DNA from: Gyrodactylus bullatarudis
Lineage: Eukaryota > Platyhelminthes > Monogenea > Gyrodactylidea > Gyrodactylidae
Direction: 5' to 3'
Length of the DNA: 64,000 nucleotides
NCBI GenBank assembly: GCA_012064415.1
Contig: SSNU01000247.1
Coordinates: forward strand, 1,736,629 to 1,800,628
Under the pieces are notes generated by a model. It was given only the letters and a program-made list of their open reading frames with translations, made no database searches and was not told the DNA's origin. Shown one piece after another: positions 46,556 to 64,000 of this stretch (position 1 is the stretch's first letter; every line of letters begins with the position of its first letter). The translations under genes were made by a program, and so were the position numbers.

Positions 46556-49434
46556 TCACTCGGTTTGTCCCTGTATCTGTTCATTCCATAACTTGGAGTA
46601 TCTGCAAAGAAGAATTTATCATTTTAATCATCAATTCTAGATCGAAAATTCAGAATTTCTTTCTCGATTATGAGTCTAATTTTGGTTATTTTTTTCTTTG
46701 CTCTTAATCTGATCAAGGTGATGAACTACGTGATGAAGAGAAAAAGAAGAATATCTTTTCTTCATTACATATTTACGAATTGGCACATGCATGTAAAAAT
46801 TATATAGAGTAAATGAAAGTGTAGCGAGGTTTCCAGTGTGTCAAATGAAAAGATTCTTTACTAACTTGCCATTCTCAATAGTCAACAGGGAGTTGTGATC
46901 GCCCCTCTCGACTATCTCCCCTAGATTCATGACCAAGATTTGTTTACAATTGACAACAGTCGACAGACGATGGGCAATGACAAGACAGCGAAATAGCAAC
47001 TTCATAACTGTACTCTTTCCACTACCTGTCTCGCCAACCAGGGCCAGGGACTGGCCTGCCTCAGCAATAAAGGAGATGTTCTTGAGCACCATCCGGCTAG
47101 AGAAATGAAGATTAGAATAAATAAAAGAAAAAAAATTCCCATTGAGCACTCACTCGGGGTTATAGCCGAAGGAAACATTTCTGAATTCTATTATTCCTTT
47201 GGTGATCATGAGATCTTTTGCATCGGGCTTCTCGATTACGTCTACAGACTCTTTCAATAAATCAAACATGTTTTCCATATCGACAAAGTTGGTCTGGACT
47301 TGCCTAGGAAACAGCTTGAGTGGAATTTTTATGTGAAAAAATAGAGAATAACTTACATGTAAAAAGTACCAAGAAAGTTCAGAGGTACGTACAACTGCAT
47401 GACATATGTACAGAACAAGATGAAATCACCAACCGACAATTTACCCATGACAACATCATGTACACAGACCAATGTACCCACCAACATGCCTATCGTAATT
47501 ATGAATGTCTGGGATGAATTAAGTAAGTTGAGGGAAGCTGAATTCTTCCAGCTGGACTTTTGTTGGTTCACAACATTGTCTCGATATTGATTCAGCTCAA
47601 ATTCTTCACCGTTGTAATATTTGACCTTGGTGAACAATAGAGTGCATTAATACAGATAATTTTTGGGTATGTGAAATAAAATTATACAATAACTGTGAAA
47701 ATAAATAACGATTAATTATAAAATCTTTTCTTCACAACAGATAAACAAATAGATTTATTAAGACACTTGAGTTGAAACTTACAGGCATCAAAATTAACGA
47801 TTAAGCAGATAGAATGTAACACTTACAGTCTCAAAATTGAGCAATGAGTCGACAGCATGTGCATTGGTGATATTCTCCAGGTTGTTCATTTCACGACGGA
47901 GTTTCTTCCTCCACTTGGTTATAATGATTGTTACAGCTAGGAGAATGCAAGAGTTATATTAAATGAGTACCGTTAGCATGCTTGAGAATTCTTACAAAAG
48001 TAGATGGCCATAGTGATGAGGACAATGATGCCATAGGCTATGTTCAGGTAGGCAGAAAAGTAGATAATACCGATCAAAATATCAACAATAGTAGGACCAA
48101 TGTTGAAAGCAATATAATAGATAATGTTTGATACGGAGGATGTTCCTCGATCAATAATCCGCAACATTTCACCAGTCTTACGAGACAAGTGCCATTTCAT
48201 CGATAGCCTAAACAAAGCAACAATTACATAATGAAAATAGAAAAAAATAGTAGTGCTTCTATAAGATGCTTGTTCGCAACATTGGCAGAGAGGGACTCAC
48301 GAATGTAAATGTTTGAAGATTTTCAAACTTAGTTCTCTAGTTGCATTCTGGTCAACAGGTATCCAAAGTATATTTCTGGCCCCGGTGAGAAAACCAGATC
48401 CAATAGATCCAAGACCCTGAAGAGAACGAAGGAACATCCAAATTAGAACAAGATCCCAACGAAACTCGAGGACATTGGCATAAACTTCTTCCCATGAAAA
48501 CCCCTTGTTGTTGAATCCGATGCCGAGCTCTACCAAAGACGTGTTCAATCCAGAAGGAGTGAGACTGTTTACTATGTCCCTGTAGAATATTGGAGTGAAA
48601 ATGTTTGTGACTCTGCCGGCCACAAGGAGAAGGATGCAAATGAGGACTCTGAACTTGAGCAGAAACTCTCCTCTCGGCCAAATGAAATCGGAGAGAAATT
48701 GGAGATTCTTCACTCGCTGAGAGAAACGTATACTTCTGGCTGGCATGGCCGAGTTCTCTTGAATGTCAATTTCCAATTGCCGATAATAGAGATCCAAGTT
48801 TGGCAGCCCTGGAGCCTTCAATCCAATCACAAAGATGAGGAGGATGATGAAATACTTGATGATCCATACCGTAAAGTTGATGATATCGGCAGTACTAATT
48901 TAGCAGAAACATTACTTGCAAGACAACTTACTCTGAGAGCGACCACCAGAATTCCCTGTTGTGCAGGGATGCCAGAGGTATATTTACCAGAATCAAGGCG
49001 AATATCCAATAAGTTAAGAGCAGTAATCCATGGCCGTGACTAGGAATACTTGGCAATCGAGAGGAGCACTCAAGGTACAAAGTTACCACGACCACAATCC
49101 AACTTATCGAGCAGCCAAGGCACTCAAAGATCTGATAGCCAAGCAAGGAAAATGACTCGTTAATAAAGTTTTGCACGACAAGGTTGACTAGAAAAACCAC
49201 AATCAGAAGCAAGTGAAGGATCCATTGCATCCTATACAGCCCGTTGGAGTTGCGAACAATCGCTGTTTGGTAAGGAAAGGCATATCTTTTATAGAATATA
49301 ATCTCTGTAAGGCATGGGATGAGGGCCAAACTTGAGAGAATGAGCGTGCTAATTGTCGAAGTGAAGCATATGCTCAGCCCGTCTTTAGTCCAAGGAGTAA
49401 AGGGAGAGGCATTATTTGGGCAAAATTCAAGCAT
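46556..49434 (-). CDS. ABCB6-like half transporter, tandem copy with 140-residue in-frame deletion in the ATPase domain
   Basis: Exons: 49434-48932, 48894-48301, 48207-47996, 47936-47827, 47625-47357, 47303-47154, 47096-46866 and 46601-46556; frame intact, about 704 aa. It has the extra N-terminal membrane domain of ABCB6/HMT-1 and the six-helix ABC domain. Walker A (GETGSGKST) runs on to LLFR and then directly to [10 protein letters not shown] (H-loop). Compared with the sister gene, 420 bp (52324-52743 there) are missing: Q-loop, LSGGEKQR signature, Walker B and D-loop. If translated it cannot form a normal ATP site; it might be inert, a dimer partner, or an early pseudogene. Splice sites and the last exon ([14 protein letters not shown]) are intact, so decay is not otherwise evident. 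Intron 1 is 37 nt. An assembly error within near-identical duplicates is another explanation. Confidence 0.85.
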
Positions 49435-49505
49435 GTGCGAATTTTATGAAATTGCTAGGTAAAACAACTGGACTAGTCATTGTTAGCGACAATTTGTTAA
49501 TCGTA
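48115..49505. repeat. 1,391-bp block identical to 54934-56324
   Basis: Covers exons 1 and 2, part of exon 3, introns 1 and 2, and 71 bp upstream of the ATG. By eye it is base-for-base the same as the other copy at a constant offset of 6819. Sequence immediately outside differs at the first positions on either side. Confidence 0.9.
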
Positions 49506-49976: not shown

Positions 49977-52900
49977 TCAAACATCTTTTCCCTGTATTTG
50001 TTCTTTCCATAACTTTGAATATCTGAAAAAGCAAATTTTGGATTCTCGAAAAATTCAGTCATCTGAACTCTGGTTTGGGTGGCTATTGAGGTGATACATC
50101 TTTTTCATGCGTTTTTTTATTAAACCGATGAACTTATCTTATTCAGGGATAATCTCTATTGGTATTGTATCTTGACAATTTTAAAGGATTCGTATTCTCA
50201 GACCTCAAAAACATTATTTAAGATATACAGACGATTTCATGGTCATTATTCCATATGAAAAAGATCCAAATGATGTTTATCACACTCGATACCTATAAAA
50301 CCTTTAACATTCCTTCACATGAATAAGGTGCAGAAATTTTTTCATCAATTAATCCTTCCAGTAAACTTCTGCCCTTGAAAGAATTCATTAGACTATGTTG
50401 TAGAGCTGTCTCCTCGGCACCCCCAGAACAGCATTTTTCATGACTTAACCCACAACACTCAGTCCAGTCTGAATCTCCCTATCAAATTCGAAACAATTCT
50501 CGATAATCGATTTAACAGGGACTACCACCTCAATAAGCATTAGGTCAACCTCAATTCGTTCAGACCTCAATGCACGAAAAAGATTGCCAACTGCCTTCCT
50601 GACAAACAAGGAAAATCACCACTCTGGCCAAGCAGCAACAACTGCATCCGCCCCAAACGACTTTTTCGTAAATGTCTTTTTACAAGGAACCTAACCCAAA
50701 TCATGCCCACAAAAGAAAATACTAATTTTCCAACTACAACGTATCAATGTTTACCTATTTATCACTATCCTATTCGAATTAATAAAGAAAAGATGTAACC
50801 TCAAGAATGGATAACCATAAAAATCACGTCAATTCCGAAAACTGGGTAGCCCTTCCAACACGGCCTCTGTGATAAAAAGAGCACATCTTCTAATGTCTAA
50901 CATGGATTCTTGAACATCTTTAATTAATCCTTTAAAATTAGCACTAGTCTCTCATTATTGTGTTAATTTTAACTTCTTAAACTCTTTAAGTTTACTTTTA
51001 TATTTATTAATTTTTGGTTTCTGCGAAATATGGAACTTGTTTATGGCTGGTTTTAAAATTTTGAATCTTATTTTGCTCCAAGATACGCAAATTTCTGTTT
51101 ATTATTTAGTCCAACTCTACTGTATATTTGTTCGTGTCGAAAAGTATCTACAAACTCTTATTGCGGTTACGTTCATTTTTTAAAATGCTCAAGGTATAAT
51201 CTAATCTTACTTTCAAGTGCTTTCTTGATAAATGTCTTGCCGTCATTGGGGTATCTTTAAAGCATCAATTAATTATCGCATCAAGATTATTTGGCAAACT
51301 ATCATCATTGAGAGCATTATCAACAATTTACAAGAAAATCCCCCCTGTGATTGCAGGATGAAAAGTCCTCCGGATTTTCGGTGAAATTTCACAGTAGTAG
51401 TTTAGTGCTTCTAACCATTGGAGCACATCTTGATGTTTTGAGGGTAAGAGGTAAAGCCAAAATCAATCCTAGCGTATTACAAATTTTAAAAAAATGAGAA
51501 AATCTTTGGTAAAATTACAAGCGAATAAAAGAGAAATTAAATTTTTTTCCAAAACTCAAGAATAGTATCATTGACCTATTATATGTGCACTTTTAATATA
51601 TTACGCTGAAAAAATATGACACTTGAGCAGTGAAAAATTTTAATCCATACGCTCACAGTGATTTTTGAGAAATAGATCTCTCTGATTCGACTTTTGAAAG
51701 GGTTATTTGAATTTTTCTGACTCAGACAATGTCTGAGAAACCTTTTCAATGTGATAAGCTGCTAAATGAACGAAACCCCGTTTTTTCATTATTATGCAGT
51801 GAGAATTTTCATAGACCACTGGATTATTTCTATCGAATTTTATTTTACCAACTCATTATTGTTGAACTGAGCATCAAAAAAAATTCGTTGGATCAAAAAA
51901 TGACCTAATTTTTTACCAATAACTTCTGAACTAAAAATAATTGCGTTAAAAAAAGTGTAGATTCTTTATCAGCGTATTCCCAAACCAAAGGTTAGACATA
52001 AGATTGAATGCGAATCATGAAAAAAAGCTCTTTGGAACTTTAAGGGTTAAAATTCAGAGTGAAATGGTATTCGAAGAGTATTGGAAATTGAAATTTTCAG
52101 AACAGACAAACTAGCTAGAATTAGGACATGGATTTCAGCCCAAAAGTCAGATCTCTTTCCTAATCAAGGTAGAAAACACATGTGATAGAGTTTTTCACTA
52201 ACTTGCCATTCTCAATAGTCAACAGGGAGTTGTGATCGCCCCTCTCGACTATCTCCCCTAGATTCATGACCAAGATTTGTTTACAATTGACAACAGTCGA
52301 CAGACGATGGGCAATGACAAGACTGGTCTTTTCACTCGACAAATTATCCAATGCCTTTTGAATGTTCTTCTCGGTGGTGGTGTCAAGGGAACTGGTTGCC
52401 TCGTCGAGAAGGATGATCTTTGGTGCCTTCAGGAGGGTCCTGGCAATTGCGATACGTTGTTTCTCGCCGCCGCTCAACTTGAGGCCACGCTCACCAACTA
52501 CGGTGGAGTAGCCCTGGGGGAAAACAGTCATGATTTTATCGTGGATCTCTGCCTTTTTACTGGCCTCAAAGATTTCTTCGTTTGTAGCTGTACATCTACC
52601 ATATCGGATATTGTACATGAGATCATTGTTGAAGAGTACCGTGTCCTGGGGCACAACTCCAATAGCATTCCTTAGGGACTTCAGTGTGACATCTCTAATG
52701 TTCTGTCCATCAATGAGAATTTCACCAGAGTTTACGTCGTAGAAGCGAAATAGCAACTTCATAACTGTACTCTTTCCACTACCTGTCTCGCCAACCAGGG
52801 CCAGGGACTGGCCTGCCTCAGCAATAAAGGAGATGTTCTTGAGCACCATCCGGCTAGAGAAATGAAGATTAAAATGCAAAGTTTAACGTGTAACATATTA

Positions 52901-55900
52901 TTCAGTGTTTTTGTCAACAAACTATAATAAGATTCAATTCAGTACGTAGTTAGTTCATCCTTGCAATTAATTGCTTTCTCAAATGTGTGATATTTAGCTT
53001 GACGTCCCAGAACTCTGATGTTTTGTGGAAAATAGAAATATATCAATTTGAAGTAACGTGGTTTTCATCTTTGGATGTTTGGTTATCGTTACTCGATTAG
53101 GACTTTATATTTACCATCTTCCGTCATTTATATGGGAGAGTTGGTAGCTAGAATCTAGTTGCTATTTAGTACAAAAATCACCTCAAATATGAGAAAGCAT
53201 TCATTCGAATCACTCACTGCTAAGATAACACTTTCAGCTTTTGTACTTGCAGCAGGCATAAAGATTATATTTCAAAAATAAATGACATGAACCAACAGTT
53301 TGTTTTTGCACTGTCAACCATAAGAAACCATTTTTTTGTAATGCAATAATTTCTTATTTATTAATATTGACTCAAAAGTAGTAGAAATTTTTTTAAAGTC
53401 ATAGGACTCAAAAAAGTGCTTTTTTTAAGCGCCTATGAATGAGTTTTTTAGGTTATATTTTTGATGCTCTAGTTATCACTCACGTTTCTCATTGAGCACT
53501 CACTCGGGTCTATAGCCAAATGTAACATTTCTGAATTCTATTATTCCTTTGGTGATTATGAGATCTTTTGCATCGGGCTTCTCGACTACATCAACCAAAG
53601 TTTTCAACAGGTCAAACATATTTTCCATATCGACAATATTGGATTGTACAGTCCTAGGGGAGATGTTGAAAGGATCATTTTTATAGAGAGGTTTAATAAC
53701 TGATAATGGCTTACATGTAAATGTTTCCAAGAATGTTTAGGGGTAAGTACAACTGCATGACATATGTACAGAACAAGATGAAATCACCAACCGACAATTT
53801 ACCCATGACAACATCATGTACACAGACCAATGTACCCACCAACATTCCAATTAAAATTATCAATGTCTGAGATGAATTCAGTAAGTTGAGGGCAGCTTCA
53901 TTCTTCCAGTTGGCTTTTTGTTGGTTCATAACATTGTCTCGATATTGATTCAGCTCAAATTCTTCACCGTTGTAGTATTTGACCTTGGTAAACGATAGAG
54001 TGCATTAATACAAATTATTTCTGTGCTAAAATTTTAAACACGCATTTTCCTCGCGCGTGTTTTGGATTTGATCTAGTGTCATCAAAGATGCCTGATTCAA
54101 ACAGCTCTCTCGAACTACATTTATTGAGAATCTGAAAATCAGGTTATTGAGCACCTCAGATAATCCCATGCGAAAGATAGGATCACAGTCAATGAATTAA
54201 TTAATAGTAGTATTTGAAACTGTAACAATTAGAGACTGCCGAACTTGGAATGGACATAAATGCCAATGGCACATCCTGGCACATTGTGATAAAATGAAAT
54301 GTTGGGCCAGGATATCTAACCAATTTTATGAATTGTGGCAAGAATGTGAATCTGATTTGGAATTACCAGTACTTATTTGAGGAAAAAAGAGTTTGGTTGT
54401 GCGCATATTTTCAGATGTGGTGTTGAATTTAGGCACGAGAGGTCTGAAATTAAAATTGCGGAGTCACACTTTTGGTTAAATTATTTTGAGTAATTGTTAC
54501 GAAATTCGCTTAAAACTCATAATATAAAATTCTTAGGAGTCTTAAAGATTTATTAACTTATTGGGGAAACGTATAAAAGTATATAAAAAGTCTTCTTGGG
54601 TTTGATAATTATAAGGAGGTCTGGAGAGCATCATTTAGAGGATAGAATGTAACACTTACAGTCTCAAAATTGAGCAATGAGTCGACAGCATGTGCATTGG
54701 TGATATTCTCCAGGTTGTTCATTTCACGACGGAGTTTCTTCCTCCACTTGGTTATAATGATTGTTACAGCTGGGAGAATGCAAGAGTTAAATTCATGTTC
54801 TTAAGATTGCTTACAAAAGTAGATGGCCATAGTGATGAGGACAATGATGCCATAGGCTATGTTCAGGTAGGCAGAAAAGTAGATAATACCGGTCAAAATA
54901 TCAATAATGATAGGAAGAAAGCCAAAAGCAATGTAATAGATAATGTTTGATACGGAGGATGTTCCTCGATCAATAATCCGCAACATTTCACCAGTCTTAC
55001 GAGACAAGTGCCATTTCATCGATAGCCTAAACAAAGCAACAATTACATAATGAAAATAGAAAAAAATAGTAGTGCTTCTATAAGATGCTTGTTCGCAACA
55101 TTGGCAGAGAGGGACTCACGAATGTAAATGTTTGAAGATTTTCAAACTTAGTTCTCTAGTTGCATTCTGGTCAACAGGTATCCAAAGTATATTTCTGGCC
55201 CCGGTGAGAAAACCAGATCCAATAGATCCAAGACCCTGAAGAGAACGAAGGAACATCCAAATTAGAACAAGATCCCAACGAAACTCGAGGACATTGGCAT
55301 AAACTTCTTCCCATGAAAACCCCTTGTTGTTGAATCCGATGCCGAGCTCTACCAAAGACGTGTTCAATCCAGAAGGAGTGAGACTGTTTACTATGTCCCT
55401 GTAGAATATTGGAGTGAAAATGTTTGTGACTCTGCCGGCCACAAGGAGAAGGATGCAAATGAGGACTCTGAACTTGAGCAGAAACTCTCCTCTCGGCCAA
55501 ATGAAATCGGAGAGAAATTGGAGATTCTTCACTCGCTGAGAGAAACGTATACTTCTGGCTGGCATGGCCGAGTTCTCTTGAATGTCAATTTCCAATTGCC
55601 GATAATAGAGATCCAAGTTTGGCAGCCCTGGAGCCTTCAATCCAATCACAAAGATGAGGAGGATGATGAAATACTTGATGATCCATACCGTAAAGTTGAT
55701 GATATCGGCAGTACTAATTTAGCAGAAACATTACTTGCAAGACAACTTACTCTGAGAGCGACCACCAGAATTCCCTGTTGTGCAGGGATGCCAGAGGTAT
55801 ATTTACCAGAATCAAGGCGAATATCCAATAAGTTAAGAGCAGTAATCCATGGCCGTGACTAGGAATACTTGGCAATCGAGAGGAGCACTCAAGGTACAAA

Positions 55901-56253
55901 GTTACCACGACCACAATCCAACTTATCGAGCAGCCAAGGCACTCAAAGATCTGATAGCCAAGCAAGGAAAATGACTCGTTAATAAAGTTTTGCACGACAA
56001 GGTTGACTAGAAAAACCACAATCAGAAGCAAGTGAAGGATCCATTGCATCCTATACAGCCCGTTGGAGTTGCGAACAATCGCTGTTTGGTAAGGAAAGGC
56101 ATATCTTTTATAGAATATAATCTCTGTAAGGCATGGGATGAGGGCCAAACTTGAGAGAATGAGCGTGCTAATTGTCGAAGTGAAGCATATGCTCAGCCCG
56201 TCTTTAGTCCAAGGAGTAAAGGGAGAGGCATTATTTGGGCAAAATTCAAGCAT
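49977..56253 (-). CDS. ABCB6: ABCB6/HMT-1-like ABC half transporter, full length
   Basis: Exons: 56253-55751, 55713-55120, 55026-54815, 54769-54660, 53983-53715, 53653-53504, 52853-52203 and 50022-49977; product 844 aa (human ABCB6 842). Family members are porphyrin or heavy-metal-conjugate half transporters of organelle and plasma membranes. Visible features: an N-terminal hydrophobic TMD0, the ABC membrane domain ([32 protein letters not shown] motif here [13 protein letters not shown]), Walker [11 protein letters not shown]-loop VVPQDTVLF, signature LSGGEKQR, Walker [13 protein letters not shown] and H-loop VIAHRLST. The last exon ([14 protein letters not shown]) is separated by a 2.2-kb intron; it was placed by matching the paralogue's last exon. 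Intron 1 is 37 nt. The tandem copy downstream lacks most of the ATPase core. Confidence 0.92.
50023..52202. other. Intron 7 of the full-length ABCB6-like gene (2.2 kb)
   Basis: The paralogue's equivalent intron is only 264 bp, so about 1.9 kb was gained here or lost there. Around 50330-50830 the base composition is less A/T-rich and plus-strand reading gives broken peptide-like runs (for example [20 protein letters not shown]), which may be a decayed coding insertion. No intact domain is recognisable. Confidence 0.45.
53984..54659. other. Intron 4 of the full-length ABCB6-like gene
   Basis: 676 bp against 201 bp in the paralogue, with little shared sequence except near the splice sites. No feature recognised. 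Confidence 0.45.
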
Positions 56254-56324
56254 GTGCGAATTTTATGAAATTGCTAGGTAAAACAACTGGACTAGTCATT
56301 GTTAGCGACAATTTGTTAATCGTA
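54934..56324. repeat. 1,391-bp block identical to 48115-49505
   Basis: Mirror entry of the identical block in the tandem paralogue; ends at GTTAATCGTA 5' of the gene, after which the flanks diverge (here an ATACGATTATCGTAT inverted motif follows). Confidence 0.9.
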
Positions 56325-56632: not shown

Positions 56633-58461
56633 CTAGACTCTTTCCTTCTTTTTAGCAGGGGAAAGTCTCTTTTTAGTAGATGTCTCGAATTTCTTTTGTA
56701 AATCTTCTAACAAATTGATTGAGTAGATTATCTTGTCATTAATTTTTTCGGTGAGACCACACTTCTCAAGGGACTTGATTGGAAATGTGTTAAACTCTTG
56801 ATTCTCATTAATAAATGTAATAGCAGAAAGGAGCGGGCACATAATAAGCTTGAAATGATCGCCAAAGAAATTAACTTGAGTTGTGCCATTAGAGAGAAAG
56901 AATACAATTGCTTTATCAGCTCTCATCCAAGTGACTAAGAAGGGTAAGCGGACCATATTATCAGAATCTTTTCTCACTATATGATTGCCAGTCTAGAATA
57001 GGACGGATAAGTTTTTTCAATGATTTACAATTTTGAAATAGAATTAAAATATCTAACCTTGAGTAGATTTTCGTACATGTAATTCTTGAAACTAGTCAAG
57101 AGCTCTATTCTCTTTTCAAGAAAATCAGGATGGTCAGATATGGTGTAAAGTTTTTCTTTACCATGCGAGTCTATATATTGTAGGTTATGCTTGTCCTTTG
57201 TCATCAAGAGAATAGTTTCGTCATTGAATAGAACTCCGGTTGAATTATCACACAATTCGTAACCAAGACCATATTTGTCTGAGTAGTCTACCCAACGAGA
57301 TATCCAGAAAATTGGAGCCGAAACCGGATTTTCATAATCATAGAGAGCATCGGCAGATGGGATAATGGAGATTTTTCTGCTTAGATCGGTCAACTGCTCC
57401 CGCATGCTGATCAAATGCCTGGGGAGACTACTCATGTCTGGTTCGATAAGCCTAGCCTCTCCCTTTGGTGGGGATGCAACATTATTCATCTGGGCCAAAG
57501 GTACACGAAGCTGATCGAATCTGGGTTCAGTCGTAAGAACAGATTCTGGTAAACATTCCGGAGTATACTCTTCAAAGAATGGATTATCAAGTACATTGAA
57601 CATCGAGGGTCTGTTGGCAGGTTCAGCATGCAATAAAGAAGAAATAAGTACTGAAGCTTTGTACGAAACAGTGCTAGGAATGCGATAAGAATTCGTTTTA
57701 ATTAGCTTGTAAGTCTCTTGCAGATCTTGGGTCTCAAATGGGGGTTTACCGACCAAAAAAGTGTAGAGAATACAACCCAAAGACCAAATATCCACCTCGA
57801 AACGATGGCCTGATTTGTTTAGAATCTCAGGGGCTATATAATTTGGAGTACCGCACATGGTAGTCTTTTTGTCATCCTTATCTTTCACAGTTGTTGCAAG
57901 ACCAAAATCTCCGATCTTGACTCTCAATTCAGAGTTGAGAAAAAGATTTGCTAATTTTAAATCACGGTGGATAATATTGAGTGAGTGAAGGTATTGGCAC
58001 CCTGAAACAATTTGTTTCACAAAGTATCGAGTCTCAGGCTCAGTAATAACAGAGCGACGCTTGTGGAGTTCCATAAGGGTCTAAATAGGTTAGAATTCAT
58101 AATATTTTACCTTTTTATTACACATCTCAAGAATGATGTATACGAAATTTGCATCATCAAAATATGAAATGAACTCTACAATATTCTCATGTTTGAGAGA
58201 CCGATGAATGAGAATTTCCTGTTTCATCTTATCTTTCTGCTGTTGTTTTGACAAGTTTGCTTTGTTGACAACCTTACCAGCATAGGATACTTTATTTTTC
58301 TCATCGTAAAATTCATAGCATTTAGCAAAACCACCCTAAAATATAAAAATTAGGCTTACTCTGCCAAGTAAGTTTTTTCTATGATAATTGACGTTGAGTT
58401 TTTGACAATAAAGCACTAAAGGAGGGGCTTTATCCTTGGCTGAGGAGGAAGCAGAAGGCAT
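56633..58461 (-). CDS. PLK1: Polo-like kinase (PLK1/polo)
   Basis: Exons: 58461-58360, 58335-58111, 58080-57058 and 56992-56633; 569 aa (Drosophila polo 576, human 603). A mitotic Ser/Thr kinase acting at centrosomes, kinetochores and midbody. Kinase domain: glycine loop [12 protein letters not shown], Lys in [24 protein letters not shown], activation loop TTMCGTPNY with the phosphorylatable Thr, and [17 protein letters not shown]. Polo-box domain: [19 protein letters not shown] with the ligand-binding Trp, then [14 protein letters not shown], whose His and Lys are the phosphopeptide pincer. Intron 1 is 24 nt and interrupts the glycine loop; read through, it gives a stop. Intron 2 is 30 nt, intron 3 is 65. 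The N-terminus before the kinase core is short (about 30 aa). It lies head to head with the AMPK gamma gene, 146 bp apart. Confidence 0.95.
58336..58359 (-). other. 24-nt spliceosomal-type intron in the Polo kinase gene
   Basis: Minus-strand sequence starts GTAAGCC and ends TATATTTTAG. Removal joins GGC AGA to GGT GGT in frame, giving LLGR-GGFAKC, the conserved kinase glycine loop. Retention adds VSLIFIF and a TAG stop. The length is counted directly. Confidence 0.8.
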
Positions 58462-58607: not shown

Positions 58608-59926
58608 ATGACTAGTGGAGAGAGAATTTTCCTCGTTAAACAAACTTCAAAAAAAGTAAAATGTTATTAAGTTAAATTATTTCAGGATACTTCAAGTTCT
58701 TTCTCTCTTCGACCATTCAGTAAGTTCTTAACATTAAGAAGATCAGCTAATATCAATCATTGTTACAAGGATTTTTTCGAGAATCACTCTTGTTATGACT
58801 TAATACCTCTTAGCGCTAAACTAATTGTATTCGACATAACTCTCAATGTAAATTATTTTTCTCAATTGTGTCAAAGGTTACAAAGGCGTTTTACGCTCTC
58901 GTTTACAACAGCGTGAGGGTGGCTACTCTCTGGGATCCAGAAAAACAAGAATATGTGGGAATGTTGACTATAACAGATTTTATTCGAATACTTACACATA
59001 ACAAGAATAGGGAGATTTCTTTAGAAGAAATTGAAAATAACCAAATCAAACAATGGAGAGAAATACTTAATGATCAGAATAAAGAGTTGATCTACGTGAC
59101 GCCAGAACAAAGTCTTTTAGATTCGATACAGCAGTTGTTGCAAATGAATGTGCATAGACTTCCTGTGATTGACAAGATATCTGGAAATCCTCTTCATATT
59201 ATGACACACAAGAGAATCTTGAAATATCTTCATATGAATATGCATAATTTACCAATGCCATCATTCATGTTAAAAACTCTCGAAGAACTAGATTGTCTGG
59301 GAACGAGAAATAATGTAGCAAAAATTCACAAGGATACAGTGATTTTTGATGCAATGAAAACATTTCTGGAAAAAAGAGTATCAGCTCTCCCAGTTGTTGA
59401 ACATGAAACTGACAAGTTGGTAGATATTTACGCAAAATTTGATGTTATAGTAAGTTTTTTCCAACAAATTTAATCAATTAAATAGAATTTAGCTGCCACG
59501 AGAACATATCAAAATCTTGATATAACAGTTCATGAAGCTCTTAGTTATAGAAGGCAGGTAATTAAATGAATACATATTTTTTTCTGCAAATATTTGTCAA
59601 ATTTCATGTTTATTACTTTTAGCATTTTACTGGAGTTTCTACTTGTAAACTATCGAATACTCTCAAGGAGATTATTGATCAGATAGTTGAAGCTGAAGTG
59701 AGTATTCTTTATGCTGACTGTGTAACAAATTTTATGTAAATTACATGATGTAATTGAAAAAATACGAAACCTAAAGGTTTTAAACCTTATCCTTTTTGTC
59801 ATTGAATTCTAACAAGGTTAAAATTACTTTTAACAGGTTCACCGTTTGGTACTCGTTGATGAGGCAAGTAGAGTTCTTGGAATTGTTTCTCTGTCAGACA
59901 TTCTTCGATTTTTGACCTGTAATTAA
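58608..59926 (+). CDS. PRKAG: AMP-activated protein kinase gamma subunit
   Basis: Exons: 58608-58655, 58686-58847, 58877-59449, 59486-59557, 59623-59697 and 59837-59926; 339 aa (human gamma-1 is 331). The subunit senses AMP/ADP/ATP through four CBS repeats and controls AMPK. Landmarks: CYDLIPLSAKLIVFD, then VRVATLWD and GMLTITDFIRIL (CBS1), NVHRLPVID and THKRILKYL (CBS2), VSALPVVE and VDIYAKFDVI (CBS3), VHRLVLVDE and GIVSLSDIL (CBS4). The Arg/His and Asp residues that bind nucleotide are largely present, though gamma-1's APLWD is ATLWD here. Introns 1-3 are 30, 29 and 36 nt; each join restores family sequence (DITLN-VTKAF, FDVI-NLAATRTY). The 16-residue first exon is less certain since it has no conserved match. 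Confidence 0.93.
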
Positions 59927-62298: not shown

Positions 62299-64000
62299 AT
62301 GTATGTTATAATTTTTAATTAAAATTATAGGTCTAGAGTTCATTCAGATCGTTATAGAGATTACGATAGTCATTCTCGATCAGAGAGAAGTCCCTATAGA
62401 TCTGACAGATCCTCCTCCCGACATCATAAAAAGCATAAAAAGCACAAATCTCGACATCAAGACGAGGATGAAAGGGACGATTTTAGTCGTAATTACGAAC
62501 GAATGAAAAGGGAAAGATCCTCTTCATCGCATCATAGAAAACATAGTCGCTCTTCACATCGTAAAAAAAAATCAACACGACACTCGAGCCCAAGCCCAGG
62601 TTCATCATCTAAATACAATGATAGAAGTGATTCGGGTGAGAATGATCCCTTGGAAAATTTTAAATACAAGACATCTTTGTTTTCTGAGATTAAAAAGAAC
62701 TCGTCTTTAATGAAAAGAGAGTCATTTTCGCGATTCAAAGATGATCGTCGGACCAAGGAATCGGATCAGATGCTCTTAGATGAAATAGATTTGCCTTCCA
62801 CTAATCCGAAAAATGATCTCAATGACATTCCAGTGCCTCCAGATACAAACTTAGAATCGATACCACCCCCACCACCTCCAATTAAACCAAACAATTATTT
62901 TAGTTCCAATGAAAAAAAGGCACCATCTGTCTCTTCAAATTCTTTTAACAATTCTGATTTACCTTTGCCTCCTGGAATATCCATTGAAGAAAAGCGGATT
63001 GTTCATGCATCCGGTGGCAATAGGAATAGATCTTCAAACAGTCTTTTGTGTAAAAGTGGAGATAAAAAGCCCAAGTTTGTCATTTTTGCGTTATACCTTT
63101 TCTTTAGGCTTTACTATAATCGATCAGAATTACGATCCAATCAAACCTGGGGGGAAAGATCAATTGTGTCTTTTTCAGACTTTGTTCAAGTTGGAGAAGG
63201 AACCTATGGTCAGGTTTACAAAGCTATTGACAAGGCAACTGGTTAGTTTATATTTTATTATTATTTTTCAAAGTGAAGTTGATAATTTATTAATTTAAGG
63301 CGAATTTAAAGCCATGAAGAAGGTTCTCCTTGCCAATGAATCAGAAGGCTTCCCAATAACAGCAATCAGAGAGATAAAAATTCTCCGTCAACTAAGACAT
63401 CCCAACATTGTTAACTTGTGTGAAATAGTCACTGATAAGGAAAATCCTCTCGACTTCAAGAAGGACTCTGGAGCATTTTATCTCGTTTTTGACTATATGG
63501 ATCATGATCTTTATGGTTTGCTAGAGTCTGGGCTTGTGGTCCTCTCTGAGCAGAATATTCAATCGTTTATGAAGCAGTTGTTGGAAGGTCTCAACTACTG
63601 TCACGAAAAGCATTTCCTTCATAGAGACATAAAATGCTCAAATATTTTAATTAATAGAAAGTAAACAGCCTCTCTCGCGTTCAATCGTCACCATTCTCTC
63701 TAACCTTTACTTTCTTCCAGGGGACAGTTGAAATTGGCTGATTTTGGCTTGGCAAGACTCTTTATTCCAGATGATGATTGCAGACCATATACAAATAAGG
63801 TCATAACCCTATGGTATAGACCTCCAGAGTTACTCTTGGGAGAAGAATGTTATCGTACCCCTGTAGATATTTGGTCAGTGGGCTGTATTCTAGGTGAATT
63901 CTTCATTAGACGTCCAATGTTTCAGTCCAAATCAGAAATGGAACAACTAGAGGTCATCAGTCAAATTTGCGGCTATCCAAATCCCCTTACTTGGCCTAGT
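62299..64000 (+). CDS. CDK12: CDK12/CDK13 transcription-elongation kinase, 5' part, with split start codon
   Basis: Model: AT at 62299-62300, a 30-nt intron (62301-62330), then exons 62331-63074, 63108-63241, 63300-63660 and 63721 to the window edge. CDK12 with cyclin K phosphorylates Ser2 of the RNA polymerase II tail. The N-terminus is Arg/Ser/His/Lys-rich (RS-like), followed by a Pro-rich patch with PPPPPPI and DLPLPPG, as in CDK12. The kinase domain begins [12 protein letters not shown] and has the hallmark [53 protein letters not shown] and [12 protein letters not shown]. The gap 63075-63107 (33 nt, GTTTGT...CTTTAG) is taken as an intron: it is a multiple of three without stops, and if kept it would add hydrophobic residues absent from the family. 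The N-terminal half is much shorter than in mammals. Confidence 0.93.

Follow-up and report, generated by a model that had tools for sequence, protein, structure and literature searches.

Microintrons in flatworms and other eukaryotes

Flatworm introns are known to include very short ones. In Opisthorchis felineus, microintron sizes peak at 37 and 90 bp (PMC6530080), and the two peaks of Taenia lie at about 36 and 73 bp, a bimodality also recorded for Gyrodactylus salaris (PMC5036155); these and the other published values quoted here come from excerpts of the cited papers. Among other animals, dicyemids carry short introns as well: for Dicyema sp. the median is 27 bp (PMC6543705), and for D. 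acuticephalum the mean is 26.2 nt (n = 16; PMC2222250). Introns of 15-16 nt are reported for the ciliate Stentor (PMC9505925). Human B complexes are estimated to require about 52 intron nucleotides from the 5' splice site to the branch site, and RED together with Smu1 eases short distances between these two sites (PMC6692369). SPF45 takes the place of U2AF where a short human intron has a short pyrimidine tract (PMC8363638). Published gyrodactylid genomes measure 67-91 Mb, and their annotations give mean introns of 353-773 bp and BUSCO values near 58% (PMC12677651); means of this size neither show nor exclude a microintron class.

The window analysed here, a stretch of 64,000 nt, contains a gene for a Polo-like kinase whose first intron is 24 nt long. 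Its features are those of the flatworm microintrons described in O. felineus, Taenia and G. salaris: GT-AG ends, a size far below that usual in animals, and two short size classes in the genome. The class centres differ, however, lying near 31 and 61-64 nt here and at 36-37 and 73-90 nt in the other flatworms, and 24 nt is well under the published peaks. Given its GT-AG ends, the separate short mode to which it belongs and its platyhelminth host, the intron would qualify as a flatworm microintron. The excerpts of the flatworm-microintron literature that we searched hold no statement on a 24-nt flatworm intron, although one may still be in print. In our reading, which we hold with a probability of roughly 0.94, the interval is a true GT-AG microintron of the spliceosomal kind that occupies an old intron position in the Polo-like kinase gene of a gyrodactylid monogenean, most likely a Gyrodactylus, and is a member of a distinct 24-41 nt class that we infer to be removed by the major spliceosome.

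A 24-nt intron interrupts the P-loop of a Polo-like kinase

The Polo-like kinase gene lies on the minus strand, with its ATG at 58461 and its stop at 56633. Sequence and reading frame delimit four exons, namely exon 1 from the ATG to LLGR (58360-58461), exon 2 (58111-58335), exon 3 (57058-58080) and exon 4 including the stop (56633-56992). The three introns measure 24 nt (58336-58359), 30 nt (58081-58110) and 65 nt (56993-57057). The spliced protein is complete at 569 aa. It matches PDB structures of PLK1, both of the kinase domain and of the polo boxes, and contains the Pfam domains Pkinase (E 2.8e-72) and POLO_box (E 6e-33, two stretches). The best-scoring PLK matches in a protein homolog search come from flukes, one monogenean and tapeworms. 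With a kinase domain and two polo boxes, the predicted product belongs to the Polo-like kinase 1 family. Intron 3, which falls into the longer of the two size classes and lies in the polo-box part, is supported by the frame and by PDB PLK1 polo-box chains, which match the spliced protein across the junction.

Read on the minus strand from 58359 down to 58336, intron 1 consists of GTAAGCCTAATTTTTATATTTTAG. The sequence-only reading of this DNA had claimed a 24-nt GT-AG interval at 58336-58359 that introduces a stop when retained and repairs the kinase loop when excised. The interval is indeed there, on the minus strand, and breaks the conserved P-loop reading frame. Its removal joins LLGR to GGFAKC in frame and in phase 0, restoring the P-loop LGR/GGFAKC, and its retention adds the seven residues VSLIFIF followed by a stop, the intron's own TAG. 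Among the 120 Polo homologs listed, the loop is uninterrupted in 118. The two exceptions are P0025, an N-terminally shortened entry, and P0014, which begins with MIHIHLSTCQ followed by GGFARC and shows an apparent CAG acceptor at the place of intron 1; its start may represent a genomic contig read from a CAG-ending intron into the exon.

Spliced alignment with a Polo-only profile, in which splice sites carried no weight and every intron cost a flat 6 nats, picks exactly the 24-nt interval out of 29 GT-AG pairs of 15-59 nt within intron 1 and 100 nt on either side. When the minimum intron length is set to 25, the same alignment drops its first 10 profile positions. The net profile gain at intron 1 is modest (2.9 nats once the penalty of 6 has been paid), since upstream of the intron there are only ten profile positions and a short exon 1 of weak conservation; forbidding intron 2 costs 23.7 nats. 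The shortness of exon 1 also explains why intron 1 is absent from the predictions of an ab initio gene finder for this gene. U12-type introns have 5' sites of the ATATCC or GTATCC type; the 5' site here, GTAAGCC, is of neither type.

The stop encountered upon retention raises the possibility of a regulated poison intron, whose retention would tune the level of the Polo kinase via message decay. That the stop is formed by the intron's own TAG would suit such a function, as would the frequency of stops in the 20 kinase microintrons of this genome, of which 14 hold an in-frame stop of their own and another 3 run into a stop within 60 nt, neither being the case for the remaining 3. Retention stops are thus common in the class, however, and nothing marks out the 24-nt intron among its fellows, so that we consider regulated retention improbable.

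The intron position is shared with a paralog

Stronger evidence than the modest profile gain comes from a Polo paralog on contig C6, which carries a different interval of 29 nt, GTAAACTTTGCTTAAATTATCCTATTTAG, at the same codon boundary as intron 1. It also has a 36-nt intron where the Polo-like kinase gene has its 30-nt intron 2, and both paralog introns were recovered by the same Polo-profile spliced alignment. The position of intron 1 is therefore shared between the two genes and does not stem from an insertion made during assembly. An assembly error or a recent small insertion, in a gene that would have no intron at this place, could be entertained since the piece matches the window's own locus alone in the assembly, with no second haplotype copy. 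Such an accident would have to coincide with a GT-AG interval of different sequence in the paralog, supply both splice signals and leave the exact frame upon removal, and it would not account for the recurrence of microintrons in other genes; we regard it as very unlikely.

The existence of the paralog, which could carry the function, likewise leaves room for a decayed gene copy in which the 24 nt are a disabling insertion. The frame of 569 aa is otherwise intact across the kinase and polo-box domains, however, and the copy in the window scores higher against the Polo profile than the paralog does (312.0 vs 242.2), which makes decay as unlikely as an assembly error. The shared position, the otherwise intact frame and the occurrence of comparable introns in other parts of the genome give good support to the sequence-only assignment of the 24 nt as an intron.

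The host is a gyrodactylid flatworm

The assembly searched comprises 77.3 Mb in 471 contigs. Its mitochondrial COX1, translated with the flatworm code, shares 89% identity over its full length with the Gyrodactylus albolacustris cluster, 83-84% with Macrogyrodactylus, Cichlidarus and Paragyrodactylus and at most 71% with the other entries listed. The host is thus a gyrodactylid flatworm, apparently a fish parasite, and this one gene makes Gyrodactylus the most likely genus. The sequence-only reading had cited dicyemids as the published short-intron animals; this framing has to give way to a flatworm one, both because flatworm microintrons peaking at 36-37 nt have been described (PMC6530080, PMC5036155) and because the COX1 of the host is gyrodactylid. 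A dicyemid-type intron in a dicyemid genome would fit the size, introns of about 24-30 nt in an animal being the trait shared with Dicyema sp. and D. acuticephalum, but is rejected on the gyrodactylid COX1, unless the mitochondrial contig were a contaminant, and is at odds with a second intron mode at 54-78 nt, centred near 60 nt.

Short introns fall into two size classes

Polo homologs and the genome's own kinases served to grow a kinase profile, which was aligned to 44 kinase loci (32 + 12), of which the twelve had been chosen since their matches held stops, a choice that favours short introns. Six loci with broken or implausible chains were left out (L029, L034, L043, L055, L061 and L062); two of these had a single intron, 78 nt long in one and 81 nt in the other. 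The first introns of the Polo-like kinase gene and of its paralog were added by hand because the general kinase profile does not begin early enough to cover them, and three introns of the AMPK gamma gene described below (29, 36 and 65 nt) were added as well. The count excludes intron 3 of the Polo-like kinase gene, a putative 30-nt AMPK intron and all introns above 85 nt, and a doubtful 72-nt intron of locus L060 was kept in the length list and left out of the donor tests.

Of the resulting 41 homology-supported introns of up to 85 nt, 22 measure 24-41 nt and the other 19 measure 54-78 nt, with none of 42-53 nt. The lengths favour two Gaussians over one by 24.4 BIC, and none of 200 bootstraps gave as large a margin; the gap between the classes stays once the twelve stop-chosen loci are removed. 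The short class has a median of 30.5 nt and includes a second intron of 24 nt, located in a kinase gene on contig C154, which costs 18.1 nats to forbid. The 24-nt intron of the Polo-like kinase gene is thus ordinary in kind for its animal and stands at the low end of its class. Support varies between introns: a 27-nt intron is weakly supported at 0.7 nats, and 7 of the 36 re-tested introns (27, 31, 54, 61, 65, 69 and 72 nt) cost less than 3 nats to change.

An independent ab initio gene finder with a flat length prior was run on 239,801 bases with five decoy dinucleotide pairs. It returned 8 GT-AG introns of 28-31 nt (0-2 for the decoys) and 27 of 56-61 nt (2-5 for the decoys), with a smaller excess across the whole range of 24-41 nt (18 vs 2-10). 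Between the classes it predicted 2 introns in the range of 42-49 nt, where the decoys gave 1-6, and 7 in that of 50-55 nt, where the decoys gave 1-2. The lower edge of the longer class therefore probably lies near 50 nt, and the gap at 42-53 nt is a thinly filled region rather than a proven void. Predicted introns of 16-18 nt look spurious.

Among kinase microintrons whose length is a multiple of three, 7 of 8 contain an in-frame stop, often the acceptor TAG, a count subject to the bias of the stop-picked loci. In this genome the centre of the second short class (61-64 nt) is about twice that of the first (near 31 nt), and Taenia shows the same relation (73 and 36); Opisthorchis, at 90 and 37, is further from twofold.

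Donor and acceptor sites differ between the classes

In the homology-supported set, 8 of 22 short introns have a G at donor position +5, compared with 15 of 18 longer ones (Fisher 0.004). For the short and the longer introns, respectively, an A at +3 is found in 21 of 22 and 10 of 18 (Fisher 0.0055), and a T at acceptor position -3 in 17 of 22 and 8 of 18 (Fisher 0.05). Removing the twelve stop-chosen loci changes these values to 0.025, 0.006 and 0.13, and restricting the set to alignments costing at least 3 nats plus the hand-added introns to 0.017, 0.13 and 0.036, respectively. The differences keep their direction in every subset, from a small sample in which several positions were examined. 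Splice sites of O. felineus microintrons are reported to be nearer the consensus (PMC6530080), whereas the short-class donors here are weaker at +5.

Branch-site scores in microintrons were no higher than in shuffles. A weak excess of CTAA was found in introns (7 of 34 vs 3.4 expected from shuffles, p 0.03 with four patterns tried), and A10 and A16 are possible branch-point candidates in the 24-nt intron.

Some of these features recall Stentor, whose commonest intron starts with GUAAU without a G at +5, as many microintrons do here, and whose introns have an AU content of 76%, compared with 78% in the microintrons of this genome (PMC9505925). In contrast, the near-fixed intron length of Stentor, its branch A mostly at position 10 and its conserved U6 ACAGAGA were not found here.

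Spliceosomal RNAs and proteins encoded in the genome

Genes for U1 and U2 with standard pairing regions exist in the assembly. Two tandem U1 genes are located on contig C9 (L010 and L011), and their 5' pairing regions read ACTTACCTG in one copy and ACTTACTTG in the other. The base that differs between them we take to face donor position -1, which is G in 13 and A in 12 of 37 homology-supported introns. U2 gave three matches in the assembly, two of which contain GTAGTA; the third (L014, contig C125) is probably a pseudogene because this branch-pairing region is missing. The regions upstream of the snRNA genes showed no common element in an 8-mer comparison.

The best U6 match (L048, contig C154, 241223-241325) fits the Rfam model over its whole length with 91.1 bits. 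Its box is ACAGAAA instead of the Rfam consensus ACAGAGA, and the 5' stem of this gene is weak. When the entire assembly was scanned with the 22-nt U6 core, allowing up to 3 mismatches, no site besides L048 turned up; the other Rfam match reaches 54.7 bits and has a diverged core. Either ACAGAAA is a true change of the U6 box, or the assembly lacks the true U6 genes. In yeast and human spliceosomes, the base changed here presumably belongs to the catalytic triple helix and, we assume, is not the one that pairs with +5.

The genome also encodes homologs of U1-70K, RED and SF1, and one G-patch protein that we take to resemble SPF45; a UHM domain, which would support the SPF45 label, was not seen by eye at the G-patch locus. 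A RED homolog and an SPF45-like G-patch protein would correspond to the factors that human short introns need, although the human test introns were longer than those considered here, at 56 nt for SPF45 (PMC8363638) and at least 70 nt for RED and Smu1 (PMC6692369).

How a 24-nt intron may be spliced

An intron of 24 nt is shorter than half of the roughly 52 nt estimated for human B complexes (PMC6692369) and is hard to reconcile with standard splicing geometry. The crowding of U1 and U2 that the sequence-only reading raised is a reasonable concern. If the major spliceosome excises the intron in the cell, its two ends would presumably be recognised as one unit, by intron definition, and U1 would have to quit the 5' site ahead of the engagement of U2 and U6 or during it, since the pairing regions of U1, U2 and U6 cannot all lie extended on 24 nt. 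RED/Smu1-like and SPF45-like factors may help, as they do on human short introns, and unspliced RNA would be expected to come under surveillance because retention creates a stop. Least explained by this route are the length itself, 24 nt as against the human estimate, and the ACAGAAA in a U6 gene with an otherwise intact core.

More tentatively, and in our view less likely than not, the genome may use two modes of recognition for short introns. Introns of at least about 50 nt would bind U1 and U2 together at strong donors with a G at +5, and those of 24-41 nt would use a compact mode that leaves no room for U1 and U2 next to each other, with donors of the GTAA type that often lack the +5 G and acceptors that are mostly TAG. 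The sparse middle size range would then be the zone in which neither mode works well, and the changed U6 box, if real, could be part of the compact mode. The size gap and the donor difference agree with such a division, as far as sequence patterns can tell.

Flatworm microintrons as such are already in print; the points that deserve further study are the U6 box and the pair of size classes, with their different donors. Side by side in one nucleus, the classes of 24-41 and 54-78 nt offer a natural comparison of how a spliceosome handles the limit of about 52 nt. Gene finders whose minimum intron length exceeds about 24 nt will break such genes, and microintrons missed in this way may contribute to the BUSCO values of about 58% in gyrodactylids.

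Short introns in other genes of the window

The AMPK gamma-subunit gene on the plus strand (58608-59926), with a spliced model of 339 aa (PDB 7jhg_G, E 7.6e-95), contains two phase 0 microintrons, one of 29 nt at 58848-58876 (FDITLN/VTKAFY) and one of 36 nt at 59450-59485 (AKFDVI/NLAATR). The spliced protein aligns to PDB AMPK gamma-1 with zero gaps at both junctions, and the microintron class is therefore not special to the Polo kinase. The spliced model and the PDB alignment also place a 65-nt intron of the longer class at 59558-59622, and the reading frame suggests a putative 30-nt microintron at 58656-58685 in the unconserved N-terminus. A candidate intron of 50 nt in this gene was dropped as it broke the frame.

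A CDK-type kinase gene, again on the plus strand, has a 58-nt intron of the longer class at 63242-63299, with 4.9 nats lost if it is forbidden. Upstream of its kinase domain, a 33-nt intron is predicted in unconserved sequence at 63075-63107 on the same strand. The minus strand further carries a tandemly duplicated gene (46841-49443 and 52160-56262), ABC transporter-like by eye, whose copies share several identical long open frames and two 300-nt blocks that are 95% and 89% alike.
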